In this document: positions 14,905-19,645 of the stretch, one piece after another | Layout: each line of letters opens with the position of its first letter | Numbering within the stretch: the first letter of the stretch is position 1 | Assembly (NCBI RefSeq): GCF_001717465.1 | Contig: NZ_CP017074.1 | Span: forward strand, 1,392,873-1,456,872 | Direction of reading: 5' to 3' | DNA length: 64,000 nt | Source: Luteimonas sp. JM171 | Lineage (GTDB): Bacteria; Pseudomonadota; Gammaproteobacteria; Xanthomonadales; Xanthomonadaceae | Translations under genes and position numbers: made by a program | Notes under the pieces: generated by a model | Seen by the model: only the letters and a program-made list of their open reading frames with translations | Told to the model about the DNA's origin: nothing | The model's database searches: none

Positions 14905-16797
<1,893 letters not shown>

Positions 16798-17539: not shown

Positions 17540-17677
17540 TGGGAGGCGGGAGCCCGTGCTGCAGACCGGCCAGCGTCGTCAACCGGATCGAGCCCGGACC
17601 GGCGGCGGGGCCGGACGTGCACGCAGCCACGATTGGGGTCCTGCAATGCTGCTGGCTGGGCGGAAGTGGAGCGCGCA

Positions 17678-18577
17678 ATGGGCGGCGGTCGGGTGGATGT
17701 GGTGGTGATCGGGGGCGGGCCGGCGGGGCTGACGGCGGGGATCTATCTCGGACGGTTCCTGCGCAGTGTGGTGGTGCTGGATGCAGGGAACAGCAGGGCC
17801 CGTTACATCCCGGCCAGCCACAACTGCCCCGGGTTTCCGCATGGGATCGCGGGCGAGGAGCTGCTGGAACGGCTTCGCGAGCAGGCGGAGGAGTTCGGGG
17901 CGACGCTGGTGCGGGCCCGGGCGGATGGCCTGGAGCAGGTTGCCGGCGGATTCGAGGTGGCGGCCGGAGGCACATCGTGGCGGGCGTCAAAGGTGATCCT
18001 GGCCACCGGCTTGGCGGATCGGCTGCCGGACGAGCCATGGGCGGAGGAGGCCATTGCCTGCGGCGCGCTGCGGCTGTGCGCGGTGTGCGATGCGTTCGAA
18101 GCGCGCGATGGGCGGGTTGCGCTCATGGGGCCGGCGGCGGGCCTGGCGGGGCATGCACGGTTCCTGCGGGGATACACGGCGCAGCTCGCGGCCATCCCCA
18201 CGGACCGGAATCTGGAACTCGACGAGGTGGACGGGATGCGCGCGCTGGGCGTGGAGGTGTTCGCCCACGGCGGCACGATGGGCTTTGATGGCAGGCGCTG
18301 CCGGTGGCGGGCCGCCGATGGCCGCGTGAGCGCGTTCGACACGGTCTATCCCTACCTCGGCTACGAGGGCCGCAACGCGCTGGTTGCCGACTGGGGCCTG
18401 GAGGCGGGCGAGGAAGGCGAACTGAAGGTCGACCGCTACCAGCAGACCGCGCGCCCGGGGTTGTATGCGATCGGGGACGTGGTCAGCGGTCTGAACCAGA
18501 TCTCCGTTGCCGTGGGCCAGGCCGCCATCGCCGCCACCCATGCGCACAATTCGTTGCCGTTTGTTCCGCGCACCTGA
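17678..18577 (+). CDS. Thioredoxin-reductase-like FAD oxidoreductase
   Basis: A 299-residue flavoprotein. The FAD-binding motif VVVIGGGPAGLTAGIYLGR opens the protein. A redox pair CAVC is present near residue 133 (LCAVCDAFE), at the position of the CxxC of thioredoxin reductases. The C-terminal FAD motif is GLYAIGDVVSGLNQISVAVG. The second nucleotide motif, normally GGGxSAxEEA, is degenerate here (MGPAAGLAGHARFL), so NADPH use is doubtful. I set the start at ATG 17678 (MGGGRVDVVV); the in-frame extension upstream only translates the repeat. Substrate unknown. The family also includes ferredoxin- and disulfide-linked reductases. Confidence 0.82.
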   Translation: MGGGRVDVVVIGGGPAGLTAGIYLGRFLRSVVVLDAGNSRARYIPASHNCPGFPHGIAGEELLERLREQAEEFGATLVRARADGLEQVAGGFEVAAGGTSWRASKVILATGLADRLPDEPWAEEAIACGALRLCAVCDAFEARDGRVALMGPAAGLAGHARFLRGYTAQLAAIPTDRNLELDEVDGMRALGVEVFAHGGTMGFDGRRCRWRAADGRVSAFDTVYPYLGYEGRNALVADWGLEAGEEGELKVDRYQQTARPGLYAIGDVVSGLNQISVAVGQAAIAATHAHNSLPFVPRT

Positions 18578-18618: not shown

Positions 18619-18939
18619 GGGCCTATAGCTCAATGGTTAGAGCAGAGGACTCATCGAAAGGTGACCCCGGCGCCGTGAGGGCCGGTGGAAAAACGGGATG
18701 AATTCAGGGGAACCTCAGCGGCGGCAGGATGCCGGACGGTGGCAACCCTGAGCCAAGCCGGCGGTACACCGCCGGAAGGTGCAGAGACTACCTGGGGGCT
18801 TGAGTGCCCTTGATGACAGGCTTGAGCGTCCCGCACCCCACCAGCGCAGGCTGAGGGTGATGAGATAGTCCGCGCCGGATGGAAACATCCGGGTAAGCGA
18901 ATCCTTTGGTTCCAGGTTCGAATCCTGGTGGGCCCACCA
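18619..18939 (+). tRNA. ileX: tRNA with anticodon CAU, probably tRNA-Ile2, interrupted by a group I intron
   Basis: The 5' exon is 18619-18654 and the 3' exon is 18900-18939; joined they give exactly 76 nt with encoded CCA. The acceptor stem is GGGCCTA/TGGGCCC with one G-T pair. The D arm is GCTC/GAGC, the anticodon stem GAGGA/TCCTT (one G-T), the loop CTCATAA, and the T arm CCAGG-TTCGAAT-CCTGG. The anticodon is CAT at 18652-18654, and the intron falls right after it, between positions 36 and 37. Elongator Met and Ile2 both have CAU. I favour Ile2, since a CAU tRNA-Ile in Azoarcus is known to carry a group I intron at the same place; the symbol is tentative. The mature tRNA would need lysidine at C34. 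Confidence 0.9.
18655..18899 (+). ncRNA. Self-splicing group I intron (IC3-like) in the tRNA anticodon loop
   Basis: This 245-nt intron has no open reading frame of its own. P1 is formed by the 5' exon TCAT and the internal guide GTGA (18661-18664), with the required U-G wobble at the splice site and a C-G pair closing a GAAA loop (18655-18660). P2 is capped by GTGA (18675-18678). P4 is TCAGGG (18704-18709) with CCCTGA (18746-18751). A CCGGCGG/CCGCCGG hairpin (18758-18775) fits P6. P7 is GACTA (18786-18790) with TAGTC (18866-18870). P9 is CCGGATG-GAAA-CATCCGG (18875-18892). The last base, 18899, is G, as required. The segments GCCAAGC and AGAGACTA match the Azoarcus tRNA-Ile intron core as I remember it. 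Helix assignments are by eye. Confidence 0.88.
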
Positions 18940-18964: not shown

Positions 18965-19645
18965 TTGAGCAAGACGGCCCTGCTTGAAACCATCGAACGC
19001 GAAACCGCTCCCGACCCCCGCTGGGCGGTGATCTGGCTGCACGGACTGGGCGCGGACGGCAACGATTTCGTGCCGCTGGTGCCGGAGCTGGTGCGCGAGG
19101 GCTGGCCGGCGATCCGGTTCGTGTTCCCGCATGCGCCGGTGCGGCCGGTGACGATCAACAACGGCGTGCCGATGCGGGCCTGGTATGACATCCGCGAGCT
19201 CGACCTGGCCAACCGTGCCGACGAGCAGGGCGTGGCGGAGTCGGTGGCGCAGGTGGAGGCGCTGATCGCGCGCGAGGGCGGGCGCGGCATCCCGCCCTCG
19301 CGGATCATCCTGGCCGGTTTCTCGCAGGGCGGAGCCGTGACCCTGGCCGCCGGGCTGCGGCGCAGCGAACCGCTGGCCGGCCTGGTCGGCTTGTCGACCT
19401 ACGTGCCCGGGGCCCAGGGCGCCCAGGCGGCGCTGGTTGAAGGCGCCACCAGGCAACCTGTGTTCATGGCCCACGGCAGCCAGGATCCGGTGGTTCCTTA
19501 CATGGCCGGCAAGCAGAGCGCCGCGCTGCTGCGGCGGCTGGGCTTCAACGTCGACTGGCACGTGTATGCGATGCCGCATTCGGTGTGCGCCGAGGAGGTC
19601 CGCGACCTGGGCGACTGGTTCGCGGCGCGCCTGGCGGGCGGCTGA
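18965..19645 (+). CDS. Alpha/beta hydrolase, phospholipase/carboxylesterase family
   Basis: A 226-residue serine hydrolase of the carboxylesterase 2 family. VIWLHGLGADGNDFVPLVPEL is the oxyanion region. The nucleophile motif GFSQGG is near residue 119, the acid is in HGSQDPVVP (near 167), and the catalytic His is in AMPHSVC (near 200). The start is TTG at 18965, only 25 nt after the tRNA end. No ATG is available upstream of the conserved N-terminus. The fimS/algZ-like kinase gene follows after 3 nt, so the hydrolase and two-component genes probably form one transcript. Confidence 0.9.
   Translation: MSKTALLETIERETAPDPRWAVIWLHGLGADGNDFVPLVPELVREGWPAIRFVFPHAPVRPVTINNGVPMRAWYDIRELDLANRADEQGVAESVAQVEALIAREGGRGIPPSRIILAGFSQGGAVTLAAGLRRSEPLAGLVGLSTYVPGAQGAQAALVEGATRQPVFMAHGSQDPVVPYMAGKQSAALLRRLGFNVDWHVYAMPHSVCAEEVRDLGDWFAARLAGG

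Follow-up and report, generated by a model that had tools for sequence, protein, structure and literature searches.

Does the interrupted CAU tRNA gene of Luteimonas sp. JM171 still give a tRNA-Ile2, and how did its intron come to this gene? The strain was isolated from coral mucus, with a genome reported as 2,992,353 bp at 69.05% G+C (PMC5095477). The genome analysed here is one contig of 2,992,253 bases, and the window, which is the whole 64-kb stretch of DNA that was analysed, has a G+C content of 69.9%. It is very probable that the gene is a split tRNA-Ile2, predicted to splice, and that split and intact genes are interchangeable alleles, old in Lysobacterales, repeatedly lost and partly passed between species. 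As far as sequences can tell, this is a real and well-supported group I intron that is predicted to self-splice; it turns over rapidly, and alleles of the gene have probably passed from species to species.

Layout of the split gene

The gene lies at 18619-18939 of the window on the plus strand and is interrupted between tRNA positions 36 and 37. Its exons (18619-18654 and 18900-18939), once joined, form a complete tRNA of 76 nt whose CCA is encoded and whose anticodon is CAU, as read directly from the letters. The locus is arranged as follows.

17651-18577, + strand: upstream neighbour, FAD/NAD(P)-dependent oxidoreductase, thioredoxin reductase-like (Pfam Pyr_redox_2)
18619-18654, + strand: 5' exon of tRNA-Ile2(CAU), positions 1-36, anticodon at its end (sequence; ARAGORN with introns allowed gives the same outer span)
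18655-18899, + strand: group I intron of 245 nt, last base G (RF00028, 67.9 bits; comparison with 42 further introns by alignment and covariation)
18900-18939, + strand: 3' exon of tRNA-Ile2, positions 37-73 and encoded CCA (sequence)
18965-19645, + strand: downstream neighbour, phospholipase/carboxylesterase (Pfam PF02230)

The product of the upstream neighbour scored 128 bits against NCBIfam TRX_reduct, under the cut-off of 343. With default settings ARAGORN reported no tRNA in the window, and with introns allowed it typed the gene as tRNA-Arg(CCG), so the gene is easily missed or mis-named. Annotation can thus lose or mis-name a tRNA that is expected to be essential, and the genome then seems unable to read AUA. 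An earlier note on this DNA had placed the insertion between positions 36 and 37, had expected tools to miss or mis-type the gene and had assumed a gammaproteobacterial host. All three hold: the exons give a perfect tRNA, ARAGORN behaved as described, and the genus is Luteimonas (Lysobacterales).

A group I fold supported by comparison

The intron matched the Rfam model RF00028 over model positions 1-253 of 253 (67.9 bits, E 4.3e-15, gathering threshold 50), and it was the one match in the window and in the entire genome. This covariance search agrees with the earlier note, which had called a group I intron from its helices. For comparison, 43 of 60 script-picked introns, each less than 90% identical to the rest, were aligned; the 60-intron set had no members from Planctomycetota and Verrucomicrobiota, and the 17 unaligned ones include all five Burkholderiales introns. 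RNAalifold predicted 68 pairs from the 43 introns, with double changes in 31 of them. In a hand-drawn structure including the P3/P7 pseudoknot, 92.1% of the cells were paired and 34 of 71 pairs showed double changes; none of 500 shuffles reached either value, and slid registers paired 33-49%. The single-strand fold of the intron gave a z of -2.5, a weak control on its own, and the case for the predicted group I fold is carried by the comparative evidence. The predicted elements are listed below.

18652-18663, + strand: P1, exon CAU and C1 (18652-18655) with GGUG (18660-18663); 43/43 introns, 22 of them preselected
18667-18685, + strand: P2 hairpin; RNAalifold pairs with many double changes, hand-drawn register fits 60.7% of cells
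18694-18833, + strand: P3, 18694-18698 with 18829-18833; invariant in 43/43
18704-18751, + strand: P4 (18704-18709 with 18746-18751), enclosing P5; paired cells 99.6% for P4 and 79.1% for P5
18752-18780, + strand: P6 and P6a (18758-18764 with 18769-18775); double changes in 7/7 pairs of P6a
18786-18870, + strand: P7, the helix that binds guanosine, 18786-18790 with 18866-18870, in a pseudoknot with P3; invariant in 43/43
18791-18820, + strand: P7.1 (18791-18794 with 18817-18820), between P7 and P3; all cells paired, invariant
18795-18799 with 18806-18810, + strand: P7.2, between P7 and P3; all cells paired, 2 pairs doubly changed
18834-18859, + strand: P8, 18834-18838 with 18855-18859; 100% of cells paired, double changes in 2 pairs
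18872-18898, + strand: P9.0, 18872-18873 with 18897-18898, adjoining the terminal G; double changes in 1/2 pairs
18875-18881 with 18886-18892, + strand: P9, with a GAAA loop; double changes in 6/7 pairs

Across the 43 introns, P1, P3, P7 and P7.1 are invariant, and P6a, P9, P7.2, P8 and P9.0 covary. P3, being the same in all 43, is therefore silent on covariation. The invariance of P1 is partly built in, because 22 of the 43 introns came from a scan that required the P1 sequence; P1 was also found in all 53 split CAU loci found by RF00028 alone. Likewise, a U.G pair stands at the splice site in 43/43 aligned introns (22 preselected by the scan pattern) and in 53/53 of the RF00028-only loci. 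The guide had been proposed to pair with the anticodon itself as TCAT with GTGA, and this pairing is recovered: U33-A makes a fifth P1 pair in the copy of Luteimonas sp. JM171. The Rfam alignment placed P1 in the upstream exon, which we took as wrong, preferring the comparative P1. At the other end of the intron, P9.0 beside the terminal G supports the predicted 3' splice site; a terminal G was demanded by our parser, so its presence in 163/163 parsed introns is no independent count.

P5 is a short hairpin with no P5a-d extension, and the absence of this extension is a mark of subgroup IC3 (PMC11835236). The hand-drawn P5a register fits 66.4% of cells, and the third P5 pair is open in 26 of the 43 introns. 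IC3 introns are not known to have a helix between P7 and P3, and such helices are a mark of group IA. In the present introns P7.1 and P7.2 form an insert relative to the RF00028 consensus, and a simple 4-bp P7.1 rule was satisfied in 158 of 163 parsed introns among the matches listed.

No homing-enzyme gene was recognised in the intron, which at 245 nt is too short for a full enzyme, and the ORFs of at least 80 aa that overlap it extend outside its bounds. Similarly, none was recognised across the 163 parsed introns among the matches listed, where the longest stop-free stretch was 120 codons.

Decoding of AUA

To this fold a pathway can be assigned. In the folded precursor, the guide GGUG would form pairs with the anticodon CAU, and a guanosine bound at P7 would cut after U36. 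The freed U36 would then attack behind the last base of the intron, a G positioned by P9.0, and the exons would be joined. Finally, TilS would convert C34 to lysidine, and the tRNA would read AUA. Splicing, its rate and lysidine formation are what we infer from knowledge of group I introns.

How much of decoding would hang on this pathway depends on the other tRNA genes. There were 44 RF00005 matches in the genome, and ARAGORN on those loci gave 44 intact tRNAs besides the split gene. Two of them carry CAU (L008 and L029), which we take, by their characteristic features, to be the elongator Met and the initiator Met; the typing of tRNA-Ile2 likewise draws on likeness to the Ile2 and Met tRNAs of E. 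coli. The single intact Ile tRNA gene carries GAU, and no tRNA-Ile(UAU) was found among the 44 intact tRNAs. The 76-nt exon query matched both halves of the split gene at 100% identity, and otherwise just other tRNAs of the genome at 76-79%. Moreover, tilS is encoded in the genome (TIGR02432, 170.6 bits against a cut-off of 93.6). The earlier note's typing of the gene as probable tRNA-Ile2 thus holds, as does its supposition of a single Ile2 gene. With the other CAU genes being those for Met, no UAU found and tilS encoded, the reading of AUA should, by the known pathway, require splicing and then the formation of lysidine. On the other hand, AUA accounts for 2 of 409 Ile codons across 28 hand-chosen genes of the window, and with a codon so rare the need for splicing may be slight. 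Both of these AUA codons are in rpoD (window 14905-16797). A conserved role for them was considered and dropped, as ATA stands at the two sites in 4 and 12 of 51 species.

The split gene might instead be a silent relic, with AUA read otherwise. The rarity of AUA would fit this, as would the fact that a simple consensus scan found no promoter-like site at the gene. However, no other Ile2 or Ile(UAU) gene was found, the exons are intact with a compensated stem change (A28-U42 to G28-C42), and the intron fold is conserved with covariation. We regard a silent relic as very improbable, and the gene is treated below as a split tRNA-Ile2 that is predicted to splice.

Relation to known tRNA introns

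We take the intron of Azoarcus sp. BH72 to belong to subgroup IC3, and a provisional version of its sequence is used here. Against that version, core motifs are common to both introns, but the Luteimonas intron has the extra P7.1/P7.2 between P7 and P3, where Azoarcus has none, and its P1 is short and GAAA-capped, unlike that of Azoarcus. Both lie in tRNA-Ile(CAU) with a guide that pairs with CAU; for the Azoarcus pre-tRNA-Ile, PMC6274277 gives the anticodon CAU and a three-base guide pairing with it. Common ancestry or transfer between the two is plausible, by comparison with that provisional Azoarcus sequence.

Several other proteobacterial tRNA introns have been published. According to the tRNAscan-SE 2.0 paper, Acidovorax and Burkholderia have tRNA-Ile2 genes that contain group I introns and are so missed by the finder (PMC8450103). 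By that description the same tRNA species is split as in Luteimonas, but these hosts are betaproteobacteria. On a tree of 137 introns, those from Burkholderiales (L143, L188 and others) mostly stand apart from those of Lysobacterales. Group I introns are recorded in cyanobacterial tRNA-Leu(UAA) and tRNA-fMet (PMC4033280; PMC8450103), a tRNA review of 2014 names cyanobacteria, alpha- and beta-proteobacteria as hosts (PMC4033280), and putative ones are given for tRNA-Arg and tRNA-Leu of Beggiatoaceae, which are gammaproteobacteria (PMC4853749). Like the Luteimonas intron these are group I introns in tRNA genes, but of other tRNAs. Lateral transfer has reportedly been claimed for cyanobacterial tRNA introns, to go by titles in reference lists. 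Another 2014 review speaks of scant evidence for interspecies movement of bacterial group I introns (PMC3984707). Among the open-access papers listed we found none on tRNA-Ile2 introns of Lysobacterales, Planctomycetota or Verrucomicrobiota, and no published account of the breadth of tRNA-Ile2 introns; Rfam and similar databases may include these matches already. Therefore, the intron is of a known kind, tRNA-Ile2 introns of several proteobacteria having been published, in a host group for which we found no earlier report.

Distribution beyond the genus

RF00028 matches were found in 12 of 52 genomes of Luteimonas, 40 of 395 of the family and 56 of 369 of the class. All 12 Luteimonas loci are tRNA-Ile2 split at the same site, and so is each of the 23 further loci fetched from the family; nine family genomes with matches lie outside the fetched set. 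Of the 30 best-scoring class loci, 18 are tRNA-Ile2 split at this site, four are tRNA-Thr(UGU), one assigned by script and three by eye, one is a probable tRNA-Lys(CUU), read by eye, and seven were left without an assignment. Named genomes were scanned with a pattern that demanded the P1 sequence, which gave at least 119 loci, at least 110 of which were parsed as split tRNA-Ile2. Among the matches listed, the hosts include Lysobacterales, Woeseiales, Chromatiales, Burkholderiales, Azonexus and others, with at least six records of Planctomycetota, at least two of Verrucomicrobiota and one MAG labelled Actinomycetes. No split tRNA could be parsed by script at 20 of 184 loci (11 of 30 class loci and 9 of 119 pattern loci). 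The site was the same in all 163 parsed tRNA-Ile2 cases among the matches listed, where the parser looked for a split following the anticodon. Exons from Planctomycetota do not resemble proteobacterial exons, so that simple contamination is disfavoured. The split tRNA-Ile2 is sporadic among congeners and, on these matches, is also found in numerous gamma- and beta-proteobacteria as well as some Planctomycetota and Verrucomicrobiota.

The tree of 137 introns was built by a quick method from genus, family and pattern loci, without the class loci and after eight duplicate introns had been dropped. Its 22 host labels required 50 changes, against 93 in shuffles. One 54-row set (SH-aLRT 98) holds 47 of the 48 Lysobacterales rows together with seven other or unassigned rows, and SH-aLRT support was 99 for Planctomycetota and 100 for Verrucomicrobiota. 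The intron on the contig labelled as an Actinomycetes MAG (L183) groups with proteobacterial ones, and mis-binning is likely.

Some further observations were made in these searches. Similar group I introns occupy 36/37 of tRNA-Thr(UGU) in other families of the class (L112, L114, L117 and L120), and one lies at 36/37 of a probable tRNA-Lys(CUU), assigned by eye (L123). A 1.0-Mb genome has three consecutive RF00028 matches within 2 kb (L133, G581:C1:320016-321821). Plasmid records gave no match to the intron. A loose pattern run over 398 genomes of the phylum returned mostly apparent chance sites and was discarded.

Turnover within Luteimonas

Among the 52 Luteimonas genomes, the split gene alone is present in 12 and the intact one alone in 39; none has both, and one has neither. 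The genome with neither (G030) is 89% complete and also without a full rpoD match, and another (G047) has two intact tRNA-Ile2 copies. Of 41 further genomes that bear the split gene, a single one (G074) seems to have an intact tRNA-Ile2 as well: the split gene is at L098 (G074:C175) and the intact one at G074:C122:3118-3193, in an assembly of 230 contigs that is 89% complete with 4% contamination, and the double copy perhaps comes from contamination.

The nearest congener (G035, 73% complete) has an intact tRNA at the same locus, which is an orthologous empty site. Compared with the split locus, its downstream flank is 92.8% identical over 1492 bases and its upstream flank 85.6% identical over 1022; one exon base differs, and the 100 bases just upstream are only 55% identical. 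Split and intact alleles at one locus with similar flanks offer a direct system for the question of interspecies intron movement, and such pairs would allow one to measure what it costs to have a needed tRNA depend on splicing.

Mapped on host trees, intron presence required 10 changes on rpoD (51 genomes; 8 forced by well-supported branches), 10 on hslU (50 genomes; 8 forced) and 9 on both genes joined (51 genomes; 7 forced). The scatter is near random, with shuffles as low in 150, 137 and 36 of 500 cases, respectively. G030 was omitted from these trees, and the hslU of G005 was entered as missing; its hslU match (G005:C4:348474-349556) has an internal TGA and covers 369 of 467 residues. These counts point to a fast turnover of the intron in Luteimonas.

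Probable exchange of alleles between species

The 12 Luteimonas introns reject the host topologies in AU tests (p 3e-7 for rpoD, 9e-6 for hslU and 1e-8 for both), which suggests that split alleles have probably moved between species. Moreover, Luteimonas introns as one clade among the 52 introns of the Lysobacterales cluster were rejected (p 0.003). The introns of G010 and G026 share 94-96% identity with the introns of G004 and G022, but 82-85% with those of G000 and G011. Holding G000, G011, G010 and G026 together gave p 0.029, for a grouping chosen after viewing the trees. G000/G011 are the nearer kin of G010/G026 on rpoD (support 92/93) and on the joined genes, but not on hslU, where they fall in a supported set of six rows (96/80), three of them split and three intact, with G051, G021 and G033 as the nearest others. 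The two genes thus disagree around G000/G011, and the host tree is not settled there. These tests draw on about 250 intron columns and two host genes, and bootstrap values on the 12-intron tree run from 45 to 99 with many weak branches.

Strict vertical descent would place the intron in the Luteimonas ancestor, followed by many precise losses and no transfer between species. The clustering of introns largely by host at the order level fits this, precise loss is easily pictured through recombination with an intact copy, and selection on so short an RNA could mislead the tree tests. However, the host topologies are rejected, the Luteimonas introns do not form one clade, and the introns of G010/G026 are closer to those of G004/G022 than to those of their rpoD kin G000/G011. 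We therefore consider strict vertical descent unlikely, and turn to how split alleles may have moved.

The exons give some indication. In a clade of nine species, five intact tRNAs are identical over 76 nt and four split ones share G28-C42 in place of A28-U42, as if whole alleles had been swapped. G28 was also scored in six intact genes elsewhere in the genus, and a tree-based sign test gave no significant link between exon allele and intron (p 0.25). In nine split/intact comparisons of near relatives the 76 bases differ by 1 to 6; in the pair G023/G003 the difference is confined to the CCA tail. Between split and intact sisters, the flanks beside the tRNA diverge while those farther upstream agree. 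As a trace of replacement this divergence was weakened, as an intact/intact pair (G033/G051) shows the same (43%). On the downstream side, most of the split/intact pairs that were compared have unrelated flanks.

A different route would be movement of the intron itself, by reverse splicing into the anticodon loop or by a homing enzyme acting in trans. The single site in every parsed tRNA-Ile2 case, within what the parser sought, and the presence of similar introns at 36/37 in tRNA-Thr(UGU) and, probably, in tRNA-Lys(CUU) speak for it. On the other side, no encoded enzyme was recognised, and the exons differ together with the intron, both in the nine comparisons and in the nine-species clade, though numbers are small. 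We judge such self-movement improbable. Transfer would most likely have been replacement of the whole tRNA gene by homologous recombination, a reading towards which we lean. In more general terms, and only tentatively, tRNA-Ile2 might in many bacteria be an essential, usually single-copy gene with two exchangeable alleles, one of them carrying a catalytic, protein-free intron in the anticodon loop. Entire tRNA genes would often be replaced horizontally, by which the split allele would both spread and disappear, and a selfish RNA would thus persist over very long times and across several phyla without a homing enzyme.

The tRNA-Ile2 locus has further features of its own. Tyrosine integrases lie directly downstream of the intact gene in G017 and G037 (L316:112-1323 and L073:114-1322, both on the minus strand), so that the locus probably takes up foreign DNA, the tRNA gene probably serving as an integration site. 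The idea that the intron protects against integration was set aside on too few cases: with one integrase as query over 1.4 kb downstream of the tRNA, relatives were found beside two of the 39 intact genes and none of the 12 split ones. Besides its intact gene, G027 has a partial tRNA-Ile2 copy (positions 32-70, 95%) at G027:C22:14748-14786 on the minus strand, which might be a remnant left by an integrated element. Island-like neighbours of tRNA-Ile2 are a HEPN/Toprim-domain protein in G003 (L072:1748-2974, minus strand) and a type I restriction methylase HsdM in G050 (L318:1579-2976, plus strand).
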